Of a stretch of DNA of 64,000 bases, positions 2 to 29,527 are shown piece by piece. The notes beneath the pieces are model-generated. The model searched no databases. It was not told where the DNA came from and saw nothing but the letters and a program-made list of their open reading frames with translations. Numbering within the stretch: the stretch's first letter is position 1; every line of letters begins with the position of its first letter. Made by a program: the position numbers and the translations under genes. This DNA is from Arthrobacter yangruifuii (lineage in GTDB: Bacteria; Actinomycetota; Actinomycetes; Actinomycetales; Micrococcaceae), in NCBI RefSeq assembly GCF_009192775.1, contig NZ_VTFX01000005.1:496001-560000 (forward strand), read 5' to 3'.

Positions 2-2548
2 GGGCTTTGTGCGGATCTGATTGCCGGCAGGCCGGGAGCCGTCATTCTGGGCGGTGCGGGCGTCGGGAAGACTGCCGTGCTTCGCGCCGTAGCAGACCGT
101 CTCCAGGAGAACTTCCGCATTGTTCCGGTACGCGGCACCGCTATTTCCGCCCGGACCCCGTACGGTGCGCTGGCCTTCCTCCTCAGCTACGTGCCCGAAG
201 GCGCCGAGCAGGATCCGCTGCAGCTGCTCCAGGAACTGAACCGCTCCCTTTCCTCGCGCACCGGACAGGGCCGGGTCCTGGTCCTGGTGGATAACGCGGA
301 CCGGCTGGACCGGTTCTCCATCATGGTTCTGTCCCAGCTGCTGCGGCGGGGGAATATCGCCGTGCTGGCCACCGCCTCAAGGCACTCGGAAATCAGTGAA
401 GAGCTGGTCCGGCTGTGGAGCGAGGGACTGCTGGAGCGGGTGGAACTGGATCCGCTGACCGAGCGGGAGACCCGCCTGCTCATGCAGCAGCTCCTCGGCG
501 GGCAGGTGTCCTCCCTCGCTGCAGGCACCATGTGGCGGGAAAGCGAAGGCAATCCGTTGCTGGTCAGGCTTCTGACCCCCGCCCAGGTCCATCACGGCAC
601 CCTTGCTCTTCGGGATGCCGTCTGGGTCCGCATTGCTGCCTTCGTCCACACCGGGGAAGTCAGTGAAGTGCTGGGCAAGGTGCTGGGCAGGCTGGGCACA
701 GCCGAACGGCGGCTGGTGGAGATCCTTGCTCAATGCGTGAGCCTGCCCCTGTCCAGTGTCCTGGCATTTCTGCCGGCTTCGCGGGTGGATGCCCTGGAGG
801 AACAGCAGATCATTTCCGTAGCCGGCAGTCCGGCGGCCGTCAGGCTCAGGGGACGGGCCCCGGGAACGGTCATCGCGGAGAGTATTCCGCCGGGGCGTAA
901 ACGGAAACTGTGGGAAGACACGTCCGCGCTGGTGAACGCCGAAGATCTCGATGGTGAGGAACTGATGGCGTACGTGGGCTGGACACTGTCCTGCGGGGAG
1001 GAGGTTCCTCCGGCGGAGATTCTTCGTGCAGCGCGTGCCGCCAACAGGCGCGCGGACCCGGCGGCGGCGCTCCGGTTCGTCCGGACGGTGCCCCGGGACC
1101 GGCGCAGCCAGGAACTGGTCCTTGAAGAGGTTCGTGCCCTGCACCTGGCCGGGCACCTCCCGGAGGCTGTCCGCGTCCTGCAGGACGCGGAGCCGCAGCT
1201 GGTCCCGCAGGAGCGTTCCAGCTATGTTCCGCTGATGCTGCTGCATGTCCGGACCCAGGCCCGCCTGCCGGGGTCCGGAGATCCCCTGCAGACACTGGCA
1301 GCTGTGGAAGTATCGTGCCCGGCGGAGGGTGAGCACCCTGAGCTGGAAGCGGCAGTGGTTATGGCCCGGAGTGCGCTGGCGGCGGACGGGGGCTGTGTCC
1401 GGGACGTGCCGGACCGCCTCGCGGAGCTTGCCGGGGACAGTGCCCTGACTCCGTTCACCCGGATGGAGGCCGCAGCGCTGCACGCGCACGTGCTTGCCCT
1501 GACCGGACGGAACTCTGAAGCACTGCAGGTCCTGAAGCGGTTGGGTCCGCCGGAGAACTACGCCGTCCACCCCGGGAATGCGGGGGAGGTCTGCACCCGT
1601 ATTTTCGATGCCTACATCCTCACCGGTGAGCTCGGCCTGGCGGCGGACTTTGTTCGTTCCTTTGATGACCTTGGTGTCCGGCCGTCCTATCAGGGTGCCG
1701 CCGGCGAGCTGGCCGTGGCCGTCCTCGCGGCCTGGCAGGGGCAGGACCGTGCAGCCCGGGATGCGCTCGCCGGCGCCATGGCGCAGCTCCGGTTTGACGA
1801 CCCGCAGGATATGCTGCCGCTCGCGCGGGTCCTTTCGGCATACGTCCGCCGCGAACAGCATCCGGAGGCGGCGGGACTGCCCGGACAGCAGAAGGCGGCA
1901 GGCAGGCGGCCGGGATATGCCAAGGATTTCCTGCTCCGCTATTTTTCCGTTCTCACCGACACCACCGACGACGCCGTTCCCCGTCTACGCGCTGAAGCGG
2001 GATCTGCCCGGGCAGCCGGCTACGCAGCACCGGCGCTGCTGTTTCTTTCGGCAGCGGTGCGGAAGGGTGACAGGCAGGCCGCGGCAGAGGTCCTCTCGAC
2101 GGCGCGGGAGGTGAGCGGGCGGTTCAGTGAACTGGTGGCGGATTTCGCAGCCGGGATCCTCCGTGATGATCCGGCGCTGCTGGTCACAGCGGCCAAGGGC
2201 TTCAATGACCGCGGACACTACCTGCTGGCCCGGGACGCTGCACAGGCTGCAGAGGACCGGTTGGCGAACGGCAGCTCAGCGGAACGGAAAAAGCTGGCCA
2301 GAACGGCCCGTGCCCTGGTCAATGCCAGTTTGCGGCGCATGCACCACCTCGGAAGCCGCGCGGAAACACTGGCGATCTTGAGCCAATTCGAGGCCGATCT
2401 TGCGCAACGGGCGGTTACGATAGCGACCACCACGCAGATAGCCCGGGAGCTGAACCTTTCTCCCCGAACAGTCGAGTGGCACCTGGGAAAGATCTTCGCA
2501 AAGCTCCACGTCTCCGGCCGATCCGAGTTGGCGGAGATTCTGGTCTAG
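2..2548 (+). CDS. LAL-type LuxR-family ATP-binding regulator 1 (5' end outside window)
   Basis: The reading frame is open to the window edge, so the start codon lies upstream; 848 residues are visible. A Walker A motif GGAGVGKT is at visible residues 17-24 and a Walker B-like LVLVDNAD follows near residue 95, marking an AAA_16-type ATPase domain. A long helical, TPR-like alanine/leucine-rich middle follows. The last 56 residues are a LuxR-type helix-turn-helix with a clear recognition helix (LSPRTVEWHLGKIF), but the first helix reads LSQFEAD instead of the usual LTxRE. This is the architecture of large ATP-binding LuxR activators. Its C-terminus closely resembles that of the third gene in the array (SPRTV-D/E-WHLG, FAKL-VSGR). 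The next gene starts 19 bases downstream, so the two are probably co-transcribed. The inducer is unknown; targets are inferred to be the adjacent polysaccharide genes. Confidence 0.88.
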   Translation, partial: GLCADLIAGRPGAVILGGAGVGKTAVLRAVADRLQENFRIVPVRGTAISARTPYGALAFLLSYVPEGAEQDPLQLLQELNRSLSSRTGQGRVLVLVDNADRLDRFSIMVLSQLLRRGNIAVLATASRHSEISEELVRLWSEGLLERVELDPLTERETRLLMQQLLGGQVSSLAAGTMWRESEGNPLLVRLLTPAQVHHGTLALRDAVWVRIAAFVHTGEVSEVLGKVLGRLGTAERRLVEILAQCVSLPLSSVLAFLPASRVDALEEQQIISVAGSPAAVRLRGRAPGTVIAESIPPGRKRKLWEDTSALVNAEDLDGEELMAYVGWTLSCGEEVPPAEILRAARAANRRADPAAALRFVRTVPRDRRSQELVLEEVRALHLAGHLPEAVRVLQDAEPQLVPQERSSYVPLMLLHVRTQARLPGSGDPLQTLAAVEVSCPAEGEHPELEAAVVMARSALAADGGCVRDVPDRLAELAGDSALTPFTRMEAAALHAHVLALTGRNSEALQVLKRLGPPENYAVHPGNAGEVCTRIFDAYILTGELGLAADFVRSFDDLGVRPSYQGAAGELAVAVLAAWQGQDRAARDALAGAMAQLRFDDPQDMLPLARVLSAYVRREQHPEAAGLPGQQKAAGRRPGYAKDFLLRYFSVLTDTTDDAVPRLRAEAGSARAAGYAAPALLFLSAAVRKGDRQAAAEVLSTAREVSGRFSELVADFAAGILRDDPALLVTAAKGFNDRGHYLLARDAAQAAEDRLANGSSAERKKLARTARALVNASLRRMHHLGSRAETLAILSQFEADLAQRAVTIATTTQIARELNLSPRTVEWHLGKIFAKLHVSGRSELAEILV

Positions 2549-2567: not shown

Positions 2568-5264
2568 ATGTACGGGTTGAACCCGCGGCCGCTGATGGGC
2601 CGGGACACTGTCCTTTCCTCCGTGCTCGAGAGCCTGACCCGGCCTGCTGGACACGGCGCGGCCGTTGCCGCGGAAACAGGGCTGGGGAAGACTGCCTTCG
2701 CTGCGGCAGTTGCGCAGAAGCTGCAGGAAAAGATGCCCGTGCACTGGGTCTATTCCAGCCCGGCCCTGCAGAGTGTTCCGTACGGGGCGCTGGCTTCCCT
2801 CCTGCCGGACCTCGCTCCGGGGCAGACCGGATCTCCGCTGGCGGTGATGCGTGCCCTGATAGGCAAACTGTCGGAAACGGCCGGCGGGCTGCCGGCCGGG
2901 CAGGGTGCAGAACCCCTGATCATCGTCGATGATGCGCATGACATTGACGGGCCCAGCCTCGACCTGCTCGCCCAGCTGCTGGAGGCCCGCCATATCCGGC
3001 TCCTTGTCCTGACCCGGTCCTTCCAGGATATTTCCGGTGTCTTGCCGCATACGTGGGATGGCCAGCTGTCCCGGCACCGTCTGCTCCCGCTGGACGAACG
3101 GCAAGTGCTCAGCCTGTGCCAGCAGGAACTCCAAGGCCAGATCAGTGCTGCGGCAGCTGTTGAGCTGGCCCGCCTCACCGGTGGAAATCCGATGTACCTG
3201 CTGGCGGTGGTTGATGAAGCGGTGCGCGGCGGCTTCCTGGTCCAGCGGCAGGGCATCTGGGTAGCGACCAACGGGGCCCTCCCGGTGGGCGGACGCGTGG
3301 GCGATCTGGTCAAGACCCAGATCCGGGGCCTGGACCACGAGGACCGCGCCGCCATGGAGGTCATCTGCCTGGCGGAACCCCTGCCGCTGACGGCTGGCTT
3401 CCGGCTGGGCCTGCACGAGTCGGTGGACCGGCTGACGGATTCGCTGCTGGTCAAGGTCTCGGCGGATGCCCGTCTCGGCCAGGTCCTGCGTCCGATGCAT
3501 CCGCTTTACGGAGATGTTGTCCGCGGCATGGTGCCGGCTGTACGAAGCGCGCGTCTGCTTCAGCAGCTGCAGCACGCCCTCGACGGTGTGGAGGTGGGGG
3601 AGGAAGGAGTGCTCCGCCGCATTTCGTGGGCCCTGGCGCTGGGAGCCGACATCCCGGAGCAGCAGCTGCTGTTCGCGGCGGAAACGGCGAACAACCGTTC
3701 CGATCCGCGTCTGGCCCTCCGCGCAGCCGCTGCCGTCGGCCAGGGGAAGCTACGCATACCCGCACAGGTCCAGGAGGCCCGCGCGCTGCTGCTGCTCGGG
3801 GAAGCCGGCCCGGCCGCCGCGGCGTTGGAGGGAACACTGGAGCAGGCCCCGGATCTGCACACCGTAAAACAGGCGATGCTGGTGCATATCCGTTTCGCCA
3901 TGACAGCCACCGGGGAGACGGACTGGGCAGGCCCGCTGGCCCTCGCCTGGACCCGCGTAATCGACCGGCTGTCCAAAGACGAGCCGCTCGAAGCTGTGGA
4001 ACGTGCCCGCTGCGGGGCCCAGCTGCTCGGGATCCTGCGCATGGTCAGGGAGGGCGACTACGTCCACGCAGAACTGGAACTGGCCCAGATGCTCCGCCGT
4101 GCACGGGAGAGCGCAGACCGTGACGCGATCCTGTGTGCAGAGGCACTGACGGCAGAAGTCCTCATGGCGACGGGGCGGGCGCAAACCGCACTCGAACACA
4201 GTACGGTTGCCATGCAGATGCTGCAGGACGGCAGTGCGGAGTCACAGCTGATGGGTACGTTCGTCCTGCACCGGCACCTCGACGTGCTCGGATGGCTCGG
4301 AGAATGGGAACAGCTTCAGGAGACGGTTGGGTCTGTGGACTCGCCCGTCCAGCCGGCGCTTCTGTATTCCGGCGGCGTCGTTGATTTTGCGCTCGGTATC
4401 AGCCGCCTGCGCTCCAATGCCCCCGATGACGCCGCCAGGCACTTTTCCGCCGCGGCGGAAGCTGCGGCCCTCCACGATCCCCAGGGCATCCTGCCGCTGG
4501 CCCTGGCCCTGGGTTCGTTTGCAGCCGGCAGCCTGGGCCAGCGGGACCTCGCCGGGAGGATGCTCGCGGAGGCCGGAAGGACCGCCCCGCGGGGACCGGA
4601 ACAGTTCCGGCTGCTGGTTGAAGGAATCCTCGCCGGGGGCCGCTATCTGTGGGATTCGGACGAGGCCTCCATGAAGGCGCTGCGGGAGAGCGCGGAGCAG
4701 GCGCAGGAGCGTTCGTTCACGGCGGTGGAATTCACCCTCCGCCACCTGTACCTGCGGCTGGGCGGGTTCGACGACGCCGGCCGCCTGCTGAAGGTCACGG
4801 AGGGATTCGAGGGACCACAGGCGGCTGTGCTCAACCGGGTGGCCCGCGCCGTCGTCGACCAGGACTGTGCGGCCCTTGCTGCCCTGGTTGCCGACCCGGA
4901 TCCGGAAATGGATGAGCTGCTGGCCAAGCAGTGCCTCGCCGAGGCGCTGCGGCTGGCCCGCAGGAGCAACAACAAGGACGTCCTCAACCGGATCGAGCGC
5001 CTCACCGGGCGGCGTGGAAGCGGCAACCGGGGTTCCCTTCCCGGATTGACCCGCCGGGAACGCGACATAGCAGCGCTGGTCGCGGACGGACATCGCAATG
5101 CTGAAATCGCCGGAATGCTGAACCTCTCCGTCCGTACGGTAGAAGGGCATATCTACCGGACCTACGAAAAACTCGGGATCAGCCGCAGGGAAGAACTGAA
5201 GGAAATATTTCCCCAGCTGGACCAGCCATCCGGACTGCAAAACCGGATCGTGGGCGCCGAGTAG
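2568..5264 (+). CDS. LAL-type LuxR-family ATP-binding regulator 2
   Basis: 898 residues. The ATG at 2568 follows a good ribosome site (GGGGGAAGAGG). The P-loop region at residues 35-42 reads AETGLGKT: the first glycine of GxxxxGKT is alanine, a mild departure from consensus. Walker B is LIIVDDAHDID near residue 118-127. A TPR-like helical middle follows. Residues 827-898 are a canonical LuxR HTH beginning LTRRERDIAALVADG with recognition helix LSVRTVEGHIYRTY, plus a short tail. The family couples ATP binding to transcription activation. The C-terminus is closest to regulator 5 (KLGISRR in both). It follows regulator 1 by 19 bases. ATPase competence is uncertain because of the altered P-loop. 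Confidence 0.9.
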   Translation: MYGLNPRPLMGRDTVLSSVLESLTRPAGHGAAVAAETGLGKTAFAAAVAQKLQEKMPVHWVYSSPALQSVPYGALASLLPDLAPGQTGSPLAVMRALIGKLSETAGGLPAGQGAEPLIIVDDAHDIDGPSLDLLAQLLEARHIRLLVLTRSFQDISGVLPHTWDGQLSRHRLLPLDERQVLSLCQQELQGQISAAAAVELARLTGGNPMYLLAVVDEAVRGGFLVQRQGIWVATNGALPVGGRVGDLVKTQIRGLDHEDRAAMEVICLAEPLPLTAGFRLGLHESVDRLTDSLLVKVSADARLGQVLRPMHPLYGDVVRGMVPAVRSARLLQQLQHALDGVEVGEEGVLRRISWALALGADIPEQQLLFAAETANNRSDPRLALRAAAAVGQGKLRIPAQVQEARALLLLGEAGPAAAALEGTLEQAPDLHTVKQAMLVHIRFAMTATGETDWAGPLALAWTRVIDRLSKDEPLEAVERARCGAQLLGILRMVREGDYVHAELELAQMLRRARESADRDAILCAEALTAEVLMATGRAQTALEHSTVAMQMLQDGSAESQLMGTFVLHRHLDVLGWLGEWEQLQETVGSVDSPVQPALLYSGGVVDFALGISRLRSNAPDDAARHFSAAAEAAALHDPQGILPLALALGSFAAGSLGQRDLAGRMLAEAGRTAPRGPEQFRLLVEGILAGGRYLWDSDEASMKALRESAEQAQERSFTAVEFTLRHLYLRLGGFDDAGRLLKVTEGFEGPQAAVLNRVARAVVDQDCAALAALVADPDPEMDELLAKQCLAEALRLARRSNNKDVLNRIERLTGRRGSGNRGSLPGLTRRERDIAALVADGHRNAEIAGMLNLSVRTVEGHIYRTYEKLGISRREELKEIFPQLDQPSGLQNRIVGAE

Positions 5265-5552
5265 TTTCCGCCGGAAACACCAGTAGGTTTTACTCGGGCG
5301 CCGCCAATCCGGGCTTCGTAAAGTGAAAACCGCTACCCACGGTTCACTGGGTGCGGATGCGGACCGGGCCTAGGCCCACCGCCCGCGGTGCCCGGGAACT
5401 TCGGGTCCCACATACGGAGCCGGCGGCGTCGATGCCCTCTGAGACCGGGGTGTCCCCCCAGCCGCCGCCGGCTCCTTCCCGAACGCTTATCCGCAGGCAC
5501 TTCCGAATGCCGGCATCAACAGCACCGCGCAACCGGTGGAGGAGCCCGTTCC
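5265..5552 (+). promoter_or_regulatory. Leader and probable promoter of LAL regulator 3
   Basis: A 288-base gap. A TACTCG element at 5291-5296 lies 28 bases (start to start) before a TAnnnT hexamer TAAAGT at 5319-5324. The same spacing occurs before regulator 4 and nearly the same before the first glycosylphosphotransferase. Transcription from here would give a leader of about 220 bases. The leader contains a 12-bp perfect inverted repeat (GAGCCGGCGGCG 5417-5428 against 5463-5474, 34-base loop) ending about 80 bases before the ATG. Promoter assignment is by pattern only. Confidence 0.45.
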
Positions 5553-7748
5553 ATGGAAGCTGCCCTACTCCGTGGAAGCCCCGACGGCAGCCGGGAGCCC
5601 GGCCCTCGTGCCGAAGCCGTCCCGGCCCAGATCAGGAATGCGGCCGCAGGAGCAATGGAAGCACTGACCGAAGGCAAGAGCGTCCTGGTCACAGGGGCAG
5701 CGGGGGCCGGGAAGTCCACCGTAATGGCCACGGTCCTGGCGGGACTTGGCAGCGGCTATTCCGTGTTGCAGCTGCGGGGGAGCGCCTCCTGGGCCGGGAA
5801 GGATTTCGACGGTCTCCTGTGGCTCCTGAGTGAACTGCCCCCGGAGCTCCTGTCCGATCCGGTGTATGTACTCCAGTTTGTCCGCAGGGTATTGAAGGAG
5901 AAGGCAGCCGGACGCCGCCTGGTGATCTCCGTCGAAAACATGGGCGAGCTGGACAATGCCTCGGTGGCCGTTCTTCTCCAGCTGTGCAGGGCCGGTTGCG
6001 CCCTCCTGCTGGCCACGGTCCGGGAGCTGTCCTCCTGCAGCAGCGAACTCGTGCGCTGGTGGGCTGAAGGATCGGTACACCGGGAGGCCCTCGAGCCCCT
6101 GAACCCCGCAGCTACCCGGGTGCTGCTCGAGGAACTGGCCGGAGGAAAGGTCTCGAATCGAGTCGTGGCCCAGGTGCAGGCAAGGGCCCTGGGCAATCCG
6201 CTGCTTTCGGCCATGTTCCTCCGGGAACAACTCGATGCCGGGACGGTGCTGAAACGGCGCGGAACCCTTGTCTGGACAGGGGCGGTCTCGTATTCCGGCG
6301 CCCTGGCCGAGCGGGTGGCAGCGGAAACCTCCGGACTTGGTCCGGCGGAACGGTATGCGGCGGATGTACTCGCGGTGGCCGGGGCCGTGCCCCCGCTCCT
6401 GCTCCTGCAGGTCGCTGATCCGGCCGCCGTTGAAAGGCTCGAACGGGATCGCCTTCTCACCTCGGGTCCGCCCGGTACCGTTCAGCTCAAGGACCCGGTG
6501 CTCGCGGCGGCTGCCGCGGCCCTGGTCCCGCACGGCCGGGCCGCCGAGATCCGTTCCCGGCTCGACGCCGTCGCCGGCGGATCTTTCCTGCGTACCGGCA
6601 GGGAACCGTCATCGGCTGCCCGCCGGACGGCGGCCACCGCAGCGGTTTACGCTGCCGCGGATCTGTCCCGCCGCGGCCGCTGGGAGGAGGCCGCGGCCGC
6701 CGCCCGGGTGTGCCTTGACGCATCGACCGAACCCGACGCCGACGGCGGGCGGCGTCCGGACCTTGCTTCAGAGCTTTTCCATGTCTTCCTGCGGTGCGGT
6801 GAGGTGCACCAGGCTGCGGACCTGCTGGCAAGGACGGAGCAGGGCGCAGCGGACACGGAGCTTGACGGCGGAAATGACCTGTGTGGGGGCACCGTCCACG
6901 CTCTGGGCGGACGTGCCGACCGCGCCCTGGACTGTCTGGAACGGGCCATTGCCCAGTTCGAGGAAGACGGATCCGCCCATCTGCTGGCCCTGGCACGCAC
7001 CGCCGCAGCCTATGCATGCCTTGTGCTTGACGACGTCGAAACAGCGCGCGCCTACCTGGCCGCTGCCGTTCCCGGCGATCCCGGGCCGGACCGGGGTGAT
7101 CCTGCTGCGTCCGTGGCGGTGCACACCGGTCCGTGGGCCGATCTCACGGCATGCTTTTCCGGGTTGTGCGCTGTCCGCGGCCTCAGTGCCGCTGCCGCCG
7201 GAACCGGCCCGGACCTGCCCGGAACCCTCCTGGTCCTCGCCGCTGCTGCGCTGCAGGGCAGGCCCGGAGCAGCAGGGGAACTCGGCACCACGGCAGCCGG
7301 CTGCAGCGGGGACGCCGCCCGGATGTACCTCGAGCTGGCCGAAGGTCTCACGGCGTCGGAGCCCGCCGCCATCCTCCGGGCGGCAGAGCGGGCCTACGGG
7401 CGGGGACAGTTCCTGATGGCCCATGAGGCGGCCCGGCATGCGGCAGACCTGTCCCGCGGAGCGGCGGACAGGCCACGGCTGCGCGCCGCAACCCGGCTGG
7501 CGAACACCAGCTACCGGATGCTGCGGACCTCTCATTCCGTAACCGACCGGCTGCCGGAACTGACCGGCTTCGAGCAGCGGCTGGCACTGGGCGCCGCGGC
7601 GGGAACCAGCAGTTCCCACCTCGCTGCGGCGCTGCATCTCTCGCCCCGGACCGTCGACTGGCATCTCGGCCGTATCTTCGCGAAGCTACGCGTTTCCGGC
7701 CGCGCGGAACTGCGTGAGTGTCTGGAAACGGAAGAACAGCGTACTTGA
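5553..7748 (+). CDS. LAL-type LuxR-family ATP-binding regulator 3
   Basis: 731 residues from ATG 5553, chosen because GGTGGAGGAG lies about 9 bases upstream. The frame stays open back to GTG 5388, but that extension is arginine-rich and unlike family N-termini. Walker A GAAGAGKS is at residues 48-55. The Walker B position reads LVISVEN near 123-129, with glutamate where siblings have aspartate. A helical middle follows, shorter than in the siblings. The C-terminal HTH (about 670-731) has a divergent first helix (LTGFEQRLALGAAAG) and an intact recognition helix (LSPRTVDWHLGRIF). It is closest to regulator 1. It has its own upstream promoter-like element, so it can probably be transcribed apart from regulators 1-2. 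Confidence 0.88.
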   Translation: MEAALLRGSPDGSREPGPRAEAVPAQIRNAAAGAMEALTEGKSVLVTGAAGAGKSTVMATVLAGLGSGYSVLQLRGSASWAGKDFDGLLWLLSELPPELLSDPVYVLQFVRRVLKEKAAGRRLVISVENMGELDNASVAVLLQLCRAGCALLLATVRELSSCSSELVRWWAEGSVHREALEPLNPAATRVLLEELAGGKVSNRVVAQVQARALGNPLLSAMFLREQLDAGTVLKRRGTLVWTGAVSYSGALAERVAAETSGLGPAERYAADVLAVAGAVPPLLLLQVADPAAVERLERDRLLTSGPPGTVQLKDPVLAAAAAALVPHGRAAEIRSRLDAVAGGSFLRTGREPSSAARRTAATAAVYAAADLSRRGRWEEAAAAARVCLDASTEPDADGGRRPDLASELFHVFLRCGEVHQAADLLARTEQGAADTELDGGNDLCGGTVHALGGRADRALDCLERAIAQFEEDGSAHLLALARTAAAYACLVLDDVETARAYLAAAVPGDPGPDRGDPAASVAVHTGPWADLTACFSGLCAVRGLSAAAAGTGPDLPGTLLVLAAAALQGRPGAAGELGTTAAGCSGDAARMYLELAEGLTASEPAAILRAAERAYGRGQFLMAHEAARHAADLSRGAADRPRLRAATRLANTSYRMLRTSHSVTDRLPELTGFEQRLALGAAAGTSSSHLAAALHLSPRTVDWHLGRIFAKLRVSGRAELRECLETEEQRT

Positions 7749-7835
7749 GGGCGCAGATCTTCGCGAGGCGGGACCGTCGCAGGTGGTTCGCACCGGTAAT
7801 TACGTAGGCATACACGGCCATGTACGGGCGATTTC

Positions 7836-7900
7836 CGAGTAATCGAGTAGCGGAACTAGGGAGCGCTACTCGTGTAGCGCCCGGAAGGCCTTCCTACTCT
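7836..7900 (+). promoter_or_regulatory. Palindromic TACTCG operator and -10-like box before LAL regulator 4
   Basis: Two nested inverted repeats occur here. CGAGTAGCG (7844-7852) and CGCTACTCG (7864-7872) are perfect 9-bp arms around 11 bases. GCGCTAC (7863-7869) and GTAGCGC (7874-7880) are perfect 7-bp arms around TCGT. A further CGAGTA is at 7836-7841. A TAnnnT hexamer TACTCT is at 7895-7900, 28 bases after TACTCG at 7867. The arrangement fits an activator site overlapping a -35 region, with cooperative binding to several half-sites. The binding protein is inferred to be one of the adjacent LAL regulators. Confidence 0.5.
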
Positions 7901-7957
7901 GGTGGACAACAGCAATACCGGTGGCAACCCTCCCCCAGGGTAGAGGGCTACCTGCTG

Positions 7958-8027
7958 CTGAACCGACACACCTGAACCGCCGAATCTGAACCGCCGAATC
8001 TGAACCGCCGAATCTGAACCGACAGAA
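7958..8027 (+). repeat. Five tandem 14-bp repeats in the leader of LAL regulator 4
   Basis: Five consecutive 14-base units share the core CTGAACCG. Unit 1 (7958-7971) is CTGAACCGACACAC. Units 2-4 (7972-8013) are identical CTGAACCGCCGAAT. Unit 5 (8014-8027) is CTGAACCGACAGAA. The array ends 14 bases before the annotated GTG start and would lie in the mRNA leader of the promoter at 7836-7900. The period is not a multiple of three, so it is not a coding repeat. Function is unknown; protein or RNA binding sites, or a slippage-variable spacer, are possible. Confidence 0.8.
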
Positions 8028-8041
8028 ACCGGGTCTCAAAA

Positions 8042-10789
8042 GTGCAGCCACATGATGATCAGCGACTCCCGCTCCACGCTTCTCCTTCCGGTCTACCGGC
8101 ACCGGTTCCACCTGCCGTCCCGGCCGGCCAGGGTGCCTACCCGGCAATGATCGGCAGAGCCGGAGTCGTCGAGGAAATCCTGCGGAACCTCGCCGGAACA
8201 ACACCGGGGGCGGGCTGTCTCCTCGTGGGCGAACCCGGCATCGGGAAGACCGCCGTGATGCAGCACGTGCTTCGGAACCTGGAGGCGGAGACCTACATTG
8301 TGCAGGTGCGGGGTTCGGAATTCGCGAGCCGGACACCGTTCGGCGCCCTGACATTCCTGCTCTCCGACCTGGACCCCGAGTTTTCCGAGCATCCGGTCAT
8401 GATCCTGCGCGGACTCACCCGCCTGGTCACGGAGCGTGCCGGTGGCCTTCCCGTCCTGCTGGCCGTGGACAACGCCGAGGAACTGGACGAGTTCTCCGCC
8501 ATGGTGCTGACCCAGATGGTGCACAACCGAAGCGCAGGCATGCTTGTTGCCTTCCGCGACTTCTGTTCGGCTCCGGCGGAGTTCGCGGGCCTCTGGCGGG
8601 ACGGGATCCTTGCGCGGGTGGATCTGGAGCCGCTGAGCGTCAAGGAAACCGCCGCCTACCTCGGCTCACTGCTGGGGGGCACGGTCTCCCGCGCCGCGGC
8701 TGCCGCCATCAACGACTATGCCGGAGGCAACCCGCATCTGCTGACCCTGGCACAGGCAGACTTCCAGGACGCAGGCCGGCTCAGGCAGCACAACGGCAGC
8801 TGGATCCTGGTTCCCGGTGAGGATATCCGCGCCGGACGGGTGGCCGGTGCGGTGACGTCCACCATGGCGGCGCTGACACCTTCCCAGAGCACGTTGTTTC
8901 AGCTGCTGTCGATGGCAGGGTCCCTGCCGCTTCCGGTGGTCCTGGCACGGCTGGACAGCACGGAGCTGGATTCCCTGCAGGAGCAGGGGCTGGTCACCCT
9001 CAATGCGAATCCCGTACCGGACGTGCTGATCACCAACCCGGTAATGGCACGCTCGGTGCGGGCAGGGCTGACTCCGTCACGGCAGCGGCAGCTCTTCGAG
9101 GAACTTGCGCCTTCGCTGAACACCGGACTGGTCCTGGATCCGCTCGTCCTGGCCCGGTGGCTGGACAGCATCGGCGAAGTGCCGGCCCGGGACCTGGCTG
9201 TGGAAGCCGCTCGGCAGGCGACCGTCACCGGCCTGCCGGAAACCGCCGTCCGGTTGATCTCAGCCGCGTTCGACGGCGGCGAGAACGCGGCCGCCGTTAT
9301 CGAACTTGCCCGCGCACGCACGGCCCAGGGCGAATACGGGGCCGCACTCGGAGTGCTGGCACGCTTCCGGGGCAGCGACGTCGTTCCGTCCGCCGAGGAC
9401 AGGATCCGCCTGCTGCTCGCCGAGTGCCGGGTGCTGTGCATCGAGGCCACCGGGCTGCGGGATCCCCGCACCGCCGAAGCCGCAGCCGAGCCGGCACGCA
9501 TGCGGCACACGGAGCTCTTTGAACAGATAGAGCGCGAAATCGAGGCCTTGACCGGAGTGGGCCGGGCGAACACCGCCGGGCTGGTGCGCGAGCTGGCGCT
9601 CTCCCGGGCTGAATGCCATTCGGCCCACGGCCGGTTCCTGGTGAACGCGTCCTATCTGGACGGCCTTGAGCTCCCGGATGCGGACTTCCGGATCCTCAAA
9701 GGCGCCTGGCAGAGCGAGGCCTGGGGCATGACCAACCGCCAGGATGACGCCGCCGAACTGGCCGGAAAGGTGGAACGGCAGCTTGAAGGAACGGATGCAG
9801 GCACCCGTGCCAGGGTGGTCGGCCGGCTGCTGCATACATATCTGTTCACCGGAGCCCTGTCCGACTGCGAGCGGTTGCTGGACGACCCTTCCGCCACGTC
9901 CGGCATGGACGGCACCTACCTGGAGTTGGCCGAGGGCCTGCTGAATGCCTTCGCAGGCAAGCCGGAGCCGGCGCTCGCGGCACTGACCCCCGCGGTTGAC
10001 CAGTTGGCGGCCAGCGGACCCGCAGCCCTCCTGCCGCTTGCGGCGGCGGCTGCGGCGTACTGCCACGCCCTGGAAGAGCGGCGTGAGGACGCGGGCCGGT
10101 ATCTGCAGGTGCAGCGCTCAGCGGCCGACGGTGGCCCCTGGGTTGTCCGGCGCGGTGCCCGCCACTTCGCCGCCCTGGCGGAAGCGGCGTTGGGAGGAGG
10201 AAACGGAAGCGCCCGCTTCGTTTCCCTGGCCGCGCAGGACCACAGGCGCGGAGCCCATGCGTACGAACTCCTGGCCCGGGTCACCGCGATGCGGCTGGGA
10301 GACGCGGACAGCCTGGATGACGTGCTGTCCGTGGCGGCGAACCAGCAGGGGGACTTCGCAGCATTGTGCGAGCTGTATGCCAAGGGCCTGGGCAACGGCG
10401 ACGCGCAGATGCTCCTGCGGGCGTCGGAGCAGGCCGCCGGCTCCGGACATGTCCTGCTGGCCCGCGAAATTTCCGAGCACGCCCTGGGCATCGCCTCCGG
10501 CGCCGGGGACCGCGCCACGGTCCGCTTCATCCACCGAAGCCGCCGGACGGCGGCCCCCGATTCTCCGGTCGAGGCCTCAGACGAGTTCCTCGGCGCACTC
10601 ACGGCACGGGAGCGCTCGATTGCCCGCAAAGCCGTAGCAGGCACCAGCAACAAGAAGATCGCGGAGGAACTGGGCATTTCGGTCCGGACCGTTGAAGGGC
10701 ATCTGTACCAGGTGTATTCGAAGCTCCATGTAGGCAGCCGCCGGGAGCTGGCACGCACTATCGCCGAGCAGGCAGGGGCAAAGAAATGA
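8042..10789 (+). CDS. LAL-type LuxR-family ATP-binding regulator 4
   Basis: 915 residues from GTG 8042; no clear ribosome site precedes it, so the start is uncertain (ATG 8147 is another option). Walker A GEPGIGKT is at 63-70 and Walker B LLAVDNAEELD near 139-149, both intact. A helical TPR-like middle follows. The C-terminal LuxR HTH (853-915) is canonical: LTARERSIARKAVAGTSNKK followed by ISVRTVEGHLYQVY. The stop overlaps the next start as ATGA (10786-10789), so regulators 4 and 5 are translationally coupled. It is preceded by the richest operator region in the window and a 14-bp tandem repeat, which suggests tight or autoregulatory control. Confidence 0.9.
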   Translation: MQPHDDQRLPLHASPSGLPAPVPPAVPAGQGAYPAMIGRAGVVEEILRNLAGTTPGAGCLLVGEPGIGKTAVMQHVLRNLEAETYIVQVRGSEFASRTPFGALTFLLSDLDPEFSEHPVMILRGLTRLVTERAGGLPVLLAVDNAEELDEFSAMVLTQMVHNRSAGMLVAFRDFCSAPAEFAGLWRDGILARVDLEPLSVKETAAYLGSLLGGTVSRAAAAAINDYAGGNPHLLTLAQADFQDAGRLRQHNGSWILVPGEDIRAGRVAGAVTSTMAALTPSQSTLFQLLSMAGSLPLPVVLARLDSTELDSLQEQGLVTLNANPVPDVLITNPVMARSVRAGLTPSRQRQLFEELAPSLNTGLVLDPLVLARWLDSIGEVPARDLAVEAARQATVTGLPETAVRLISAAFDGGENAAAVIELARARTAQGEYGAALGVLARFRGSDVVPSAEDRIRLLLAECRVLCIEATGLRDPRTAEAAAEPARMRHTELFEQIEREIEALTGVGRANTAGLVRELALSRAECHSAHGRFLVNASYLDGLELPDADFRILKGAWQSEAWGMTNRQDDAAELAGKVERQLEGTDAGTRARVVGRLLHTYLFTGALSDCERLLDDPSATSGMDGTYLELAEGLLNAFAGKPEPALAALTPAVDQLAASGPAALLPLAAAAAAYCHALEERREDAGRYLQVQRSAADGGPWVVRRGARHFAALAEAALGGGNGSARFVSLAAQDHRRGAHAYELLARVTAMRLGDADSLDDVLSVAANQQGDFAALCELYAKGLGNGDAQMLLRASEQAAGSGHVLLAREISEHALGIASGAGDRATVRFIHRSRRTAAPDSPVEASDEFLGALTARERSIARKAVAGTSNKKIAEELGISVRTVEGHLYQVYSKLHVGSRRELARTIAEQAGAKK

Positions 10790-13527
10790 CACACCGGGAA
10801 CAGACCAGTGAGCTCTTCGGCCGCGACCGGGAACTCGCCGAGGTGACCAGCCGGCTGCTGGACCCCGGACTGCGGGGCGTGGTCCTGCTCGGGGCAGAGG
10901 GAATCGGCAAGTCCTCCCTGGCCGCATCCGCCGCAGAACACCTGCGCTCGGTCATGGCTCCGTACTACGTCAGCGGAAGCCCCGTGTTGTCCCGCATGCA
11001 GTACGGCATTCTCTCCACCTACCTGGGATCGGCCACCGCCGCCGATATGGAGTCACCGCTGGCCGTCCTGCGGACAGTACGGGCGCACTTCCAGCGGCTG
11101 ACGGAAACCAGCGGCATGCAGAGCCTCCTGGTGGTGGACAACGCCCAGCATCTCGATGAAGCCAGTGCACACCTGCTCACCCAGCTGGCCATGTCCGGAG
11201 AGCTCCGGCTGATGGTGATTTCCCGGCCGAGGGCACCCCGGATCCATGAACTTCTCTCCCTTGCCCGGGACGGGCTGCTGGCCCGGATCGATCTGGAGCC
11301 GTTGTCCGGCCCCGCCGTCCACGAGTTCTGCGCCAGTGTGCTGGGCGGACCGGTACTGCAGGCCTCCAGTACGGTGCTGCACCGGATGTCCCGCGGCAAT
11401 CCGCTGTATGTGAAGGAAATGCTGACCCGTGCCCGGCGGCAGCAGCGGCTGGTGGAACGCAACGGCGCCTGGTACCTCTCCGGCGAGCCGGACTGCGTGG
11501 ATACCCCGCTGTTTGACCTGGTCAAGACGCTGCTGGCAACACGCAGCCCCGCCGAACGCAGCGTGCTGGAGACGGTGGCACTCGCCGGGCGCCTGCCGCG
11601 GTCCGTGGCGTCGGCGGTTTCCGACGACGAGGCGGTGCGGTCGCTGATGATCGACGGCCTCGTGGAAATCCTGCCGGGCCAGGATGAATTCGCGCATTTG
11701 GTGCAGCCGCTGCACGAGGAGATCATCCGCTGCCTCGTTCCGGCAGCCCGGAGCGCGGAGATCCATGCCAGGGTCCTGGGCCGCTATGACCCAGGCCCGC
11801 TGCGGGAGCAGACGGACCCCGAGGGGCTCGATATGGCGCTGCGCTATGTCGAGTGGGCACTGGACTGCGGCGAACGGCTTCCACCTGAAGACCTGCTCGC
11901 GGCGGCTCGTGCGGCCAATAACATGGGGGACGGCGCCCGTGGCCGGAGATTCGCGGCCGCGGTCCGACCGCTGCCGTTTAGGAAGGACGCGGAGGTGGAG
12001 CTCGCCGTCGCCTATGCACAGGAGGGCAGCTACGGGCGGGTACGCACGCAGCTGGAGACGCTGAGGGCTGGGACGGACGACGCCGGCAGCTGGACCCAGC
12101 GCAGCCTGCAGCGAACGGCCTTCACCAGTGCCCTGATGCTTCGCCAGTCGCACGCGGACGGCAATGAACTGACCGGCCTGGCCGAAAGGTGGGTGGAAGC
12201 GGCAACGCGGCTGTCCGCCTCGGAAGATGCCTCCGCGGGCACACCGGCCGGCGTTTCGGCAGCGGCGCAGCTGCTGGCCGCAGCTGCTCTGATCGTGGAC
12301 GGCAACTATACCGAAGCCCGAAGCCGGCTGGCCGATCTTGCCGCGGGGGAGACGGACCAGGATGCTGAACGGGCGCTCGTACTGCACGGTCTCTACGCAG
12401 AGGTCCTCACGGCGTGCGGCGAGGTGGAAGCTGCGCTGGAGCAGGCGCAGGCCGCCGCGGATCTGCTGAATAACAGTGCCGGACAGCTGTGGGGCTACAC
12501 CGGATTTGTCTTCGTGCGCCATGCCTTCGCCCTGCTGCACAGCGGGCGGTTTACGCAGGTGGAGCAGCTGGCCGCCCGGATACATTCCGGCCCCCAGCAC
12601 CTGCTGACCGCACTGGGCGGGACGCTGGGTGTGATCGAGGGGGCTCTCGAAATCCACCGGGGAAGGCTGCACGAAGGGCTGCGCCGGCTGCGGCCTGCGG
12701 TGGAAGCGCTGCGGGACGGGGACCCCGAGGTCCTGCTTCCCTACGCGCTGGGGCTGGCAGGTTACGCATCGGCCGTGGTCGGCGACGGAGCCTCCGGTCC
12801 CGCGGGCAGTACCCGGGTTTCCACGGCGGGCTACACCGGCCGCCGGCATTTGTGGCTCACGGCCCAGGCCTACGCCGCTGCGGCCGAAGCCTCTCAGTCC
12901 ACCGAGGGTCCGCCTCCTGAGCAGCTTGCCGCGCTTGCCGCCGAGGCCAGGGAGGCCGGACTGCATAGCAGCGAGAAGGACATCCTGGAATTGTGCCTGG
13001 CCGTCGGCGGCCTCGCGCAGCTGGGGCGCCTGGCGGAGCTGACTGCGGACTTCGACGGCGCGGAGGCCCAGGCCCTGCACGCCTATGCCGTTGCCGTCGC
13101 CTCAGGCAACCCGGACCGGATGGTCGCGGCCGCCGAGGATGCCATCCGCGCGCAGAAATACCTCGTGGCCGTGGAGAGCATCGGACATGCCATCCGCTTC
13201 TACGGCAACCACGGAAACCTCCGCCGGCAGCGTGCCCTGATCCAGCAGCTGCGGCGGCGTCGGGAGGAACTGGCCGGAGTGACGGTTTCCTATCTCAGCC
13301 CTTCACTGCATCTGGTGCGGCTGACCCGCCGGGAACACGAAATCGTGGATCTGCTTCTCTCGGGTGCCACGACCAAGGACATTGCCGTCCATTTCACACT
13401 GTCCCAGCGGACCGTGGAAGGGCACGTCTACCGGATCTACGTGAAGCTCGGAATCAGCCGCAGGGCGGACCTCGAGTCGGCCTACCGTGCCCTGGAACCC
13501 GGCCACCGGACGGGGTCACTGCTCTAG
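10786..13527 (+). CDS. LAL-type LuxR-family ATP-binding regulator 5
   Basis: 913 residues; the ATG overlaps the previous stop by four bases. Walker A GAEGIGKS is at 36-43 and Walker B SLLVVDNAQHLD near 113-124. The middle is alpha-helical. The C-terminal HTH (846-913) is canonical: LTRREHEIVDLLLSGATTKD then LSQRTVEGHVYRIY. The C-terminal helix KLGISRR matches regulator 2. It is the last gene of the array and directly precedes the first polysaccharide operon on the same strand, making it a plausible pathway-specific activator (inference). Confidence 0.9.
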   Translation: MTHREQTSELFGRDRELAEVTSRLLDPGLRGVVLLGAEGIGKSSLAASAAEHLRSVMAPYYVSGSPVLSRMQYGILSTYLGSATAADMESPLAVLRTVRAHFQRLTETSGMQSLLVVDNAQHLDEASAHLLTQLAMSGELRLMVISRPRAPRIHELLSLARDGLLARIDLEPLSGPAVHEFCASVLGGPVLQASSTVLHRMSRGNPLYVKEMLTRARRQQRLVERNGAWYLSGEPDCVDTPLFDLVKTLLATRSPAERSVLETVALAGRLPRSVASAVSDDEAVRSLMIDGLVEILPGQDEFAHLVQPLHEEIIRCLVPAARSAEIHARVLGRYDPGPLREQTDPEGLDMALRYVEWALDCGERLPPEDLLAAARAANNMGDGARGRRFAAAVRPLPFRKDAEVELAVAYAQEGSYGRVRTQLETLRAGTDDAGSWTQRSLQRTAFTSALMLRQSHADGNELTGLAERWVEAATRLSASEDASAGTPAGVSAAAQLLAAAALIVDGNYTEARSRLADLAAGETDQDAERALVLHGLYAEVLTACGEVEAALEQAQAAADLLNNSAGQLWGYTGFVFVRHAFALLHSGRFTQVEQLAARIHSGPQHLLTALGGTLGVIEGALEIHRGRLHEGLRRLRPAVEALRDGDPEVLLPYALGLAGYASAVVGDGASGPAGSTRVSTAGYTGRRHLWLTAQAYAAAAEASQSTEGPPPEQLAALAAEAREAGLHSSEKDILELCLAVGGLAQLGRLAELTADFDGAEAQALHAYAVAVASGNPDRMVAAAEDAIRAQKYLVAVESIGHAIRFYGNHGNLRRQRALIQQLRRRREELAGVTVSYLSPSLHLVRLTRREHEIVDLLLSGATTKDIAVHFTLSQRTVEGHVYRIYVKLGISRRADLESAYRALEPGHRTGSLL

Positions 13528-13760
13528 CCCTCCGGAGGCACGGGCAGGAGTTTTCCGGCAGTACCGGTGGCACGGGCCGGACCGCGGATACCGGTGTCAA
13601 CAGGAACCCCTGCAGTGTCAGCAGCCACTGTGTTTCCGGTACCCGCGTAGCAAGACAGGTAGAAGCCCTGCGGTGCGGGGCACGCCCGCCGGTTCAACTG
13701 AGTACCCGGTACTCGTGCCCGTGGCAGGGGGGCGCTCCTAGATTGATGTCCGTTGGATAA
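13528..13760 (+). promoter_or_regulatory. Promoter region of the first polysaccharide operon
   Basis: A 233-base gap. The short palindrome CCTCCGGAGG (13529-13538) just after the stop could form a weak hairpin. An inverted repeat GAGTAC-CCG-GTACTC (13700-13714) contains TACTCG at 13710. It is followed 29 bases later by the -10-like TAGATT at 13739-13744. Initiation about seven bases downstream would leave only about ten bases before ATG 13761, so the message may be leaderless or nearly so. It resembles the elements before LAL regulators 3 and 4. Pattern-based only. Confidence 0.5.
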
Positions 13761-15503
13761 ATGGTCTGCACAAAAAGGAATGACGGTCTCGTTATGGGTG
13801 CTGATATGCAGCCCGGGCTTCTGCCGGGCGCCCCGGCGTTGGAGGTGCCGGGGTCGCCAGCCGGCGCGGACATCATGGGCACGCCGTTTCCCACTGACGC
13901 ACCACCTCTGTCCGGGCAGGTGTCCGGCCATGTGTCCGGCCCGCTTCGGACACTCCCACCGGCGCCGGCGTCTGCCCATGTACGCACGGCCGCCCCCGCT
14001 GCACCGCCGGCGGAAGCGTTCGTCTTTCCCAGTTTCACCAAACGGCGGCCGTTTCCCGGGACCGGCCAGTCCAGGAGTGCCGCCGCTGCGTGGGCCCGCA
14101 AATACTCCCGGATCATCACCGTGACGGACGCCGTGGTGGTGTTCGCGGCGGCCCTGGCCGGACACCTGGCCTGGTTCGGCCTGTCACCGGCCCCGCTGCA
14201 CATCGGTTCGGTGACCACCACCTACCTGGTCTTCTCCGTGATAGTCGGCTCCGGCTGGATGCTGGCCCTGCACGTTTACCGAAGCCGGGATTCCCGCATC
14301 ACCGGCATGGGAGCCGACGAATACAAACGGGTGGTCAACGCCAGCGTCATGCTGCTGGGTGGCCTGGCCCTGGCCTCAGTGGTCTTCCAGTTCGATGTGT
14401 CCCGGGGATATCTCGGACTGGTTTTCCCTGCGGGGGTGGGCGGGCTCGTCTGCTCGCGGTGGCTGCTGCGCCAGTGGCTGCAGGCCCAGCGGCAGCGTGG
14501 ACGGTACCTCTTCAAGGTCGTTGTGCTGGGGCGCGCCCGGGACGTGCGGTACGTCGTCCACCAGATCAACGCCAAGTCCAAGGCTGCCTACCAGGTGGTG
14601 GGCGTGGCCCTGACGGGCAAGAAGCGGACCTGGCTAGATGTGGACTCCACCAGGCTGCCCGTGGTTTCCGACGAACAGACGGTGGTCGACGCCGTGGGCC
14701 GGCTCCGCGCCGATGCCGTCATTGTCGCGGGCCCCACCAAGGGCGGAAGCCGTTATGTCCAGGAACTCAGCTGGGAACTGGAAGAGTCCTCCACCCAGCT
14801 GATCCTGACCACCGGGCTGACCAATGTGGCCGGTCCCCGGATCCATTCCCGGCCCGTCGAGGGCCTGCCCCTGATGCACGTGGAGCTGCCGCAGTATTCC
14901 GGCGCCAAGCACGTGCTCAAGCGCAGCCTGGACGTTGCGCTTTCCGGCGCCGCCCTGCTCGCCCTGATCCCGGTCTTCCTCATCCTTGCGGTGCTGGTCC
15001 GGCGGGACAGTCCCGGACCGGTGATATTCCGGCAGAAGCGGGTGGGCCGTGGAGGGGAGGTCTTCGAAATGCTTAAGTTCCGCTCCATGGTGCAGACGGC
15101 GGAGGATGACCTGGCCGGGCTGCTGGACCGGAACGAAAGCTCGGGGGTGTTGTTCAAGATGCAGCATGATCCGCGGGTCACCCGGGTGGGCCGCTGGATG
15201 CGCAAGTACTCCCTCGACGAGCTTCCCCAGCTGTGGAACGTGTTCCTGGGGCACATGTCCCTGGTCGGTCCCCGGCCCCCGCTGCCGCGCGAGGTGGCCC
15301 AGTACGGCAACCGTGTCCACCGGCGCCTCTACATCAAACCGGGCCTTACCGGCATGTGGCAGATCAACGGCAGGTCCGAACTCAACTGGAAAGACGGTGT
15401 CCGCCTGGACCTGTACTACGTCGAAAACTGGTCGCTTGCCGGCGACCTCATCATTCTCTGGCGCACGGTGCAGATGCTCCGCAGGCCCGTGGGTGCCTAT
15501 TAG
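13761..15503 (+). CDS. Exopolysaccharide polyprenyl glycosylphosphotransferase (first copy)
   Basis: 580 residues. Several hydrophobic segments lie between about residues 115 and 235, followed by a soluble nucleotide-binding-like region. From K387 (KRSLDVALSGAALLALIPVF) a bacterial sugar transferase domain begins, with LKFRSMV, DELPQLWNV, SLVGPRPPLP and the C-terminal GLTGMWQINGRS. Such enzymes (WcaJ/WbaP/CpsE type) transfer a hexose-1-phosphate from a nucleotide sugar to undecaprenyl phosphate at the membrane, starting repeat-unit synthesis. The first 100 residues are Pro/Ala-rich and atypical. ATG 13794 is a possible alternative start with AAGGAA upstream. It heads an operon with the next two genes and has a paralogue at 43059-44528. 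Confidence 0.92.
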   Translation: MVCTKRNDGLVMGADMQPGLLPGAPALEVPGSPAGADIMGTPFPTDAPPLSGQVSGHVSGPLRTLPPAPASAHVRTAAPAAPPAEAFVFPSFTKRRPFPGTGQSRSAAAAWARKYSRIITVTDAVVVFAAALAGHLAWFGLSPAPLHIGSVTTTYLVFSVIVGSGWMLALHVYRSRDSRITGMGADEYKRVVNASVMLLGGLALASVVFQFDVSRGYLGLVFPAGVGGLVCSRWLLRQWLQAQRQRGRYLFKVVVLGRARDVRYVVHQINAKSKAAYQVVGVALTGKKRTWLDVDSTRLPVVSDEQTVVDAVGRLRADAVIVAGPTKGGSRYVQELSWELEESSTQLILTTGLTNVAGPRIHSRPVEGLPLMHVELPQYSGAKHVLKRSLDVALSGAALLALIPVFLILAVLVRRDSPGPVIFRQKRVGRGGEVFEMLKFRSMVQTAEDDLAGLLDRNESSGVLFKMQHDPRVTRVGRWMRKYSLDELPQLWNVFLGHMSLVGPRPPLPREVAQYGNRVHRRLYIKPGLTGMWQINGRSELNWKDGVRLDLYYVENWSLAGDLIILWRTVQMLRRPVGAY

Positions 15504-29375: not shown

Positions 29376-29443
29376 ACCTAACTTGGACCCGGTGTTACGC
29401 GGGGTCCGCGGGCCGGTACTCGTGTTTGAGGCGGCGCTACTCT
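29376..29443. promoter_or_regulatory. Divergent regulatory region with paired TACTC elements
   Basis: Between the propeller gene (minus) and the cytidylyltransferase (plus). TACTCGTGT starts at 29417 and GCGCTACTCT at 29434; their TACTC cores are 21 bases apart, about two helical turns. TACTCT at 29438-29443 could itself be a plus-strand -10. On the minus strand GTTAGG (29377-29382) is a possible -10 for the propeller gene. A related arrangement occurs before the paralogous propeller gene (34329-34393). Confidence 0.45.
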
Positions 29444-29527
29444 AATCCGGACAATTCGCTTTACCTCCGGTTTCCGGGACTGGAAGATCATCCGGACAGT
29501 CACCGTCTCACTGGGGGTCCACACGCC

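Follow-up and report, generated by a model that had tools for sequence, protein, structure and literature searches.

How is a tandem of five LAL-type regulator genes, followed by a glycosylphosphotransferase gene (GPT), brought under common control? The window, the whole 64,000-nt stretch of DNA that was analysed, spans positions 496001-560000 of contig C5 in a 3.5 Mb genome. A Pfam domain search of the window gave the following genes:

77..2548, + strand: LAL1 (GerE; true 5′ end possibly left of the window edge)
2568..5264, + strand: LAL2 (AAA_16 and GerE)
5553..7748, + strand: LAL3 (GerE; AAA-type matches under the Pfam cut-off)
8042..10789, + strand: LAL4 (AAA_16 and GerE; GTG start)
10786..13527, + strand: LAL5 (AAA_16 and GerE; start overlapping the LAL4 stop)
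13794..15503, + strand: GPT, glycosylphosphotransferase (Bac_transf and CoA_binding_3; proposed start ATG 13794)

GerE was present in all five LAL proteins. AAA_16 scored above the cut-off in LAL2, LAL4 and LAL5 and below it in LAL3, and LAL1 as translated from the window gave no AAA match in Pfam. The make-up of a LAL regulator, an AAA/STAND ATPase with a C-terminal GerE HTH in about 700-950 aa, was found here. For GPT, the search was run on 13761-15503 and the start at ATG 13794 is inferred. A relative of LAL4 is present in all 29 genus genomes, own included, and Arthrobacter zhaoxinii zg-Y108 is a relative with the same locus. A LAL at the LAL3 position followed by LAL4 and LAL5 was seen in the 28 genus stretches compared, one of which (L060) starts only at that position. 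LAL1 and LAL2 do not adjoin the LAL3-position gene in L046, L049, L050 and L054, and among the 28 stretches L037 and L044 showed no GPT match downstream of LAL5.

The first-pass annotation had pointed to TACTCG at 5291, 7867 and 13710, ahead of the -10-like hexamers TAAAGT (5319), TACTCT (7895) and TAGATT (13739), as a candidate shared operator. The letters and coordinates proved correct, with start-to-start spacings of 28, 28 and 29 nt, and the genes downstream are those it had named: LAL3, LAL4 (GerE/AAA-type in Pfam) and the glycosylphosphotransferase (Bac_transf). We refer to the three sites as A, B and C:

5282..5298, + strand: operator A, AGTA-N5-TACTCGGG, upstream of LAL3 and conserved in the genus
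5319..5324, + strand: -10-like TAAAGT of promoter A
7844..7852, + strand: left arm CGAGTAGCG of the perfect repeat at B, unconserved
7855..7874, + strand: operator B, ACTAGGG-N6-TACTCGTG (counted to the A of ACTCGTG), conserved in the genus
7895..7900, + strand: -10-like TACTCT of promoter B
13700..13717, + strand: operator C, GAGTA-N5-TACTCGTG, upstream of the glycosylphosphotransferase and conserved in the genus
13739..13744, + strand: -10-like TAGATT of promoter C

By itself, TACTCG is mildly enriched in the window (23 occurrences vs 15.0 expected, sd 3.1; 0 of 100 shuffles as high). The composite TACTCG-N21..24-TA...T is found three times on the + strand, exactly at A, B and C, and once on the - strand (57291), compared with a mean of 0.325 and a maximum of 3 in window shuffles, 0 of 200 of which reached 4. 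When the three intergenic regions were shuffled, the composite appeared in two or more of them in 0 of 2000 trials. A chance origin of the three sites was rejected on these grounds, and the motif is commoner upstream of these genes than at random. A genome-wide motif scan, as the first-pass annotation had recommended, was made with the bare word GTACTCGTG. That word lies at 17 places in the window's own genome, two of them inside the window, vs 54 for its reversed control. None of its 11 minus-strand places has TA...T at an offset of 19-36 (this scoring covered the minus-strand places; four more places lie on the plus strand outside the window). The word alone is therefore not diagnostic. With the strict word-plus--10 pattern, site C was the sole match in this genome. 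Separately, a candidate fourth operator at 29417 was set aside; it recurs in 4 relatives (5 of 29 genomes with the window's own) with TAC[TC]CGTG retained and an indistinct -10 spacing.

The shape of the operator differs from the one first proposed at one of the sites. Perfect inverted repeats had been claimed at 7867 and 13710, and both are perfect in the window: GAGTACC-C-GGTACTC (13700-13714) at C, and CGAGTAGCG (7844-7852) with CGCTACTCG (7864-7872) at B. At C, the AGTA-N5-TAC frame is conserved, but at B the two arms occur together only in the window (1 of 29 genomes) and the perfect repeat was rejected there as the operator. Sites A and C are inverted repeats of the form [AG]GTA-N5-TACTCG, and the conserved form of B has a direct-repeat-like layout.

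Counted with one fixed pattern per site, operator A plus its -10 was present at 18 of 24 genus loci (12 TACTCG, 6 TACCCG; L046, L049, L050, L054 and L060, where LAL2 was not placed, are omitted). CTNGKK-N5..7-TACTC[GA] matched site B at 28 of 29 loci, and the remaining one (L049) has TACTCA with TA...T under a looser pattern. Operator C was present at 21 of 28 loci (18 TACTCG, 3 TACGCG; L055 omitted). All 67 matched genus sites carry a -10 of the form TANNNT, at a distance of 28 nt in 56 and 29 nt in 11, although the pattern permitted a wider spread. In the window and its 11 nearest relatives, site A reads AGTAG(G/C)TTTTACTCG in 12/12, with AGTAGGTTTTACTCG exact in 11 and changed once in L037, and site B reads ACTAGGG-N5-TACTC(G/A) in 12/12. 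More distant genus members have A as GGTA-N5-TACCCG, C as (G/A)GTA-N5-TACTCGTG and B mostly as CTGGTG-N5..7-TACTC(G/A), with CTGGTG replacing CTAGGG. Based on this conservation, we consider it highly probable that the operator with its fixed -10 spacing is functional.

Taking the -10 hexamer as -12 to -7, with the transcription start inferred, the repeats at A and C are centred near -43 (5288) and -44 (13707). The -35 positions read GGGCGC, GTGTAG and TGCCCG, with no -35-like hexamer at A, B or C, which makes these promoters look activator-dependent. The earlier suggestion of a site over the -35, as for class II activators, is upheld by these centres, by the missing -35 and by the fixed 28-29 nt to the -10. 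Rigid spacing (28 or 29 nt at 67/67 matched sites) and the absence of a consensus -35 would also be expected if TACTCG belonged to an unusual sigma-factor promoter and no activator site existed. We think this very improbable, since the upstream half-site has a spacing of its own, the -10 has the ordinary TANNNT form, and a distance of 28 nt exceeds that of a usual -35/-10 pair by about 5 nt.

Alignment of site A also revealed a block downstream, as conserved as the operator itself, which folds into a hairpin in the LAL3 leader:

5400..5486, + strand: conserved hairpin RNA of the LAL3 leader (hairpin 5416-5475)
5439-5446, + strand: apical loop CTGAGACC of the hairpin
about 5455-5461, + strand: C-rich bulge of the hairpin

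The hairpin consists of a 13-14 bp outer stem, an inner stem, the loop and the C-rich bulge. Its core pattern occurs once per locus in 29 genus loci, giving 87 gapless alignment columns in which the loop UGAGACC is invariant and the bulge is also conserved. It lies before LAL3 in the window's clade and between LAL5 and GPT in other genus members. In the leader alignment, 98.3% of cells are paired, and both sides of a pair changed in 48 cells, compared with 19.2 for shuffled alignments and no more than 8 for slid controls. Two of the five covariation measures for this hairpin fell within the shuffles (8 both-side pairs, with 50/500 as high; 17 pair types, with 477/500). The covariance model (R1) found the hairpin in 29/29 genus genomes. 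At E 1e-3 it gave matches in 157 of the 295 family genomes, covering 19 of the 32 genera; outside the window's own genus the count was 133 of 271 genomes. At E 1e-4 it matched 25 of 396 genomes from the order; of these, 22 belong to the window's family and the three others are weak. Searches of Rfam 15 gave no match at the gathering cut-off and, in E-value mode, one unrelated microRNA model each at a chance-like E of 0.66 and 1.5.

A second, weaker copy of the hairpin is located just left of the window at C5:495657-495740, and 28 of 29 genus genomes have one (none in G024). It has the same fold, with the loop CYGAGACU. In L117 (genus g5) the gene preceding this copy is pth, and a pth-like C-terminus was read before the copy in L061, L111, L116 and the g8 stretches L159 and L166; the linkage was read in these stretches. 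Upstream there are stretches resembling promoters (CATTGTT...CCTAAAAT, with similar ones across the genus), and a T run closes some copies (L116, L117 and L047; CCCTTATTTT in the window's own genome). In an alignment of 25 of the 27 pth-type copies (A3; L039 and L041 omitted), 99.4% of cells are paired and both-side changes number 16 vs 2.9 in shuffles and at most 1 when slid, with one of five covariation measures not above shuffles. Compensatory changes were thus found in both the leader hairpin and the pth-linked copy. Taken together, these analyses make it nearly certain that the hairpin is a real RNA element.

Other genera, too, carry the operator ahead of leaders with the hairpin, in front of LAL, transferase or BTAD genes. 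For this comparison, 20 stretches (175.8 kb) and 80 further leaders were our choice among the matches listed in a family-wide hairpin search; surroundings were read for 30 of the 99 matches of the follow-up search. In the 20 stretches, among the matches listed, the inverted-repeat operator plus -10 gave five matches in three genomes (0 in shuffles), each 153-242 nt upstream of a hairpin. TAC[CT]CGTG plus -10 gave ten matches there vs 0.1 in shuffles, again among the matches listed, and eight of the ten precede a hairpin (the exceptions are L102 5142 and L118 3578). These 20 stretches held no match to the direct-repeat form B. TAC[TC]C[GA]-N20..24-TA...T was present in 18 of the 80 further leaders (among the matches listed), vs 0.71 in shuffles with a maximum of 4, and absent from the other 62. 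The 80 upstream stretches are all different, and since many come from related species or from one genome they are not independent.

Which protein would bind this operator? A LAL protein is the somewhat better supported candidate. An alternative is that the operator is real and recognized by some other regulator, such as a BTAD/SARP protein or a response regulator, with the LAL genes merely as targets. In G046, a BTAD gene (L109) has the same operator, -10 and hairpin upstream of it, and L106 and L108 look BTAD-like in translation. Against this, GerE was found in 15/15 tested long proteins beside hairpins in other genera (10/10 + 5/5), and the mix of inverted and direct half-sites suits a LuxR/NarL-type HTH, with ComA as the precedent (PMC4797271). 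We judge a non-LAL regulator to be unlikely. Other proteins beside the hairpins of these genera were Bac_transf in 3/3 transferase candidates, and one was BTAD.

The hairpin loop GAGACC has an exact complement, GGTCTC, at two starts in the window:

8032..8037, + strand: GGTCTC box of LAL4, 4 nt upstream of the GTG start, complement of the hairpin loop
13785..13790, + strand: GGTCTC box of GPT, 3 nt upstream of ATG 13794

The LAL4 box stands before GTG in 29/29 genus genomes (3 nt away in 25 genomes, 4 nt in three and 1 nt in one), against a background of 15 GGTCTC in coding sequence from the same genomes (29 x 2500 nt). Downstream of LAL5, GGTCTC-N0..6-ATG is found at 12 of 28 loci, and the GPT box itself in only 5 of 12 close genomes. 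A possible start, defined as ATG or GTG within 8 nt of a box and not as a proven start codon, lies upstream of 10 of 25 hairpins vs 0.8 in shuffles (maximum 5); in this set, a single box serves for two hairpins of L100, and three of the 25 are pth-type copies. The 80 further leaders, among the matches listed, all have the loop GAGACC, and 40 of them have a box at a possible start vs 2.7 in shuffles (maximum 8). In this sample of the matches listed, GGTCTC ranked first of 90 letter permutations, the next scoring 15. An unpaired stretch complementary to target starts is thus present for LAL4 (29/29), the GPT stretch (12/28) and half of the further leaders (40/80, among the matches listed). Box and operator pattern occur together in 11 of the 80 (among the matches listed). 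In 17 of the 40 boxed leaders (among the matches listed), the GG of the box closes GGAAGG, AGAAGG or AAGAGG, and pairing would therefore cover the ribosome-binding site.

An ORF begins at the boxed start in several genera; it extends across the hairpin and stops at or close to the GPT start, and in L048 and L113 it is fused to GPT (second copies of L061, L043, L052 and L058 were omitted from this survey, and L115 has no GAGAC loop). With the stretch inside such an ORF in many genomes, a conserved peptide motif might account for the conservation in place of an RNA. In L104 and L107, however, extra C residues break the reading frame while the hairpin stays; base pairs change on both sides; and the copy after pth folds alike without that peptide. 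These frame breaks and paired changes led us to reject the peptide reading, which we consider exceedingly improbable.

Another idea is that the hairpin binds a protein or serves in attenuation or RNA processing, and that the boxes act otherwise than by loop pairing. The bulge is conserved like the loop and may bind a protein. In genus g8, six of the 13 readable hairpins (of 14 matches; the L160 stretch is too short) have no GAGAC loop (L158, L165 and L167-L170). The box is absent from 40 of the 80 further leaders among the matches listed, including 14/22 in g10 and 9/10 in g7. The six-base match hardly varies, and in the same 80 leaders (among the matches listed) the base beside it does not covary: loop C faces box A 5, G 2 and C 1 times, and loop U faces A 20, G 7 and other bases 5 times. 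Nevertheless, box and loop are exactly complementary, the box sits at the LAL4 start in 29/29 genomes, and its frequency at possible starts (40/80, among the matches listed) exceeds that of the 89 other letter permutations. On balance, we find this explanation rather doubtful, and the loop probably pairs with the GGTCTC box. A co-change of loop and box in g8 (L115/L158) was set aside, as it spans no more than about five bases and concerns a single genome. Elsewhere, the hairpin was observed between a boxed start and the transferase, with a further copy after pth that has its own promoter-like sequence.

Based on these observations, we predict an activator operator in which TACTCG is the half-site nearer the promoter, arranged as an inverted repeat at A and C and in a direct-repeat variant at B. 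Once bound, the activator would lie over the -35 region and bring RNA polymerase to promoters with no usable -35. With one or more LuxR-type LAL proteins of the neighbouring genes as the probable activator, LAL3, LAL4-LAL5 and the first glycosylphosphotransferase gene would form an autoregulated circuit. The first-pass annotation's shared operator for the LAL circuit therefore survives as a conserved site in a class II-like position, without the perfect repeat at 7867 as a conserved feature. The hairpin RNA and the GGTCTC boxes on the same transcripts are new beyond that annotation. The loop GAGACC of the LAL3-leader hairpin is complementary to the boxes at the LAL4 start and, in the window's own genome, the transferase start. 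Hairpin loops, in cis and in trans, would pair with these boxes and block translation initiation. The operator would then set transcription and the hairpins would gate translation of the polysaccharide genes. In the window, the hairpin is in the LAL3 leader, away from its proposed targets, and so would have to act in trans. Whether the predicted effect of pairing would be repression rather than activation we put at even odds.

Activator-driven promoters combined with antisense hairpins that cover ribosome-binding sites are our best reading of the sequences, with a probability of roughly 0.58. A fuller scheme is more tentative, and we would not yet bet on it: a two-layer polysaccharide switch of the Micrococcaceae, in which a LAL-bound TACTCGTG operator might drive transcripts carrying the anti-box hairpin and a pth-linked sRNA, its loop almost identical, might silence GGTCTC-tagged starts in trans. 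With the anti-box hairpin on LAL-driven transcripts, the LAL3 leader would also serve as an RNA regulator of LAL4 and the transferase. If true, these proposals would provide a defined operator for the LAL regulators of a common soil family and an added regulatory RNA family, which occurs in 157 of the 295 family genomes sampled and for which the Rfam search gave no match. The match of loop and box predicts a six-base pairing that can be tested. To our knowledge, base-pairing RNAs have been little studied in the bacterial group to which the window belongs. Among the open-access papers listed in literature searches, none showed a LAL operator of TACTCGTG sequence or a description of a TACTCGTG operator or a GAGACC-loop hairpin RNA.

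Among known systems, the lux box is a LuxR-type operator. The sites described here resemble the class II operators of the LuxR/NarL group (ComA; lux box) in having short half-sites, both inverted and direct, for one protein family. ComA of Bacillus subtilis uses inverted and direct repeats, which serve different promoter types (PMC4797271). Our sites differ in the half-site, TACTCGTG, and in the candidate regulators, which are large AAA-type LALs. MalT and the SARP-LAL regulators of Streptomyces are LAL-type regulators, large AAA/STAND-type proteins with a C-terminal GerE HTH. The window's proteins share this plan, but here five LALs stand in tandem before polysaccharide genes. The 6C sRNA is a compact hairpin with C-rich unpaired loop residues. 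Our hairpin is like 6C and other C-rich-loop sRNAs in being compact and in having C-rich unpaired residues that could pair near a Shine-Dalgarno sequence. In contrast to 6C, it is one bulged hairpin with a GAGACC loop and no credible Rfam match, and it also occurs as a leader element within the regulated transcripts.

The operator and hairpin also precede genes of another regulator type. In one genome (G046), BTAD-type regulator genes at three loci (L106, L108 and L109) are preceded by the same operator and by the hairpin RNA, a leader element with a GAGACC apical loop and a C-rich bulge; the BTAD assignment was made via Pfam for L109 and by reading of the sequence for L106 and L108. In one Micrococcaceae genus, g8, six hairpins (L158, L165, L167-L170) retain the outer stem and the C-rich bulge, and their loop is without GAGAC.

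The glycosylphosphotransferase gene after LAL5 probably starts at ATG 13794 rather than 13761, since the latter start leaves a leader of only about 10 nt and its ATG is absent from L033, a relative's locus. At two related loci, L050 and L100, a single transferase is preceded by two hairpin copies. At L048 and L113 the transferase is fused in frame to a leader ORF whose start follows GGTCTC, the loop complement.

Further elements were located as follows:

C5:495657-495740 (L061 7658-7741), left of the window: second hairpin copy in this genome
29417-29424: additional TACTCGTG; the ORF that follows it (ATG 29529) is cytidylyltransferase-like
57291, minus strand: TACTCG with TA...T (TACAAT) 28 nt on

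The 57291 site is the sole other TACTCG in the window with this arrangement. At 29417, TACTCT lies just 21 nt downstream, and the ORF's leader carries GTCTCACTGGGGG (about 29500-29512), the complement of much of the hairpin loop and bulge. Four relatives retain a form of this stretch.

The second hairpin copy lies between an upstream pth-like gene and LAL1, with a promoter-like CCTAAAAT and with CCCTTATTTT at its end. About 55 nt upstream of the -10 of the pth-linked RNA (L047, L051, L052 and others) is a GGGTA...ACCCGTG-like repeat, similar to operator A, the inverted repeat upstream of LAL3, with shorter spacing.
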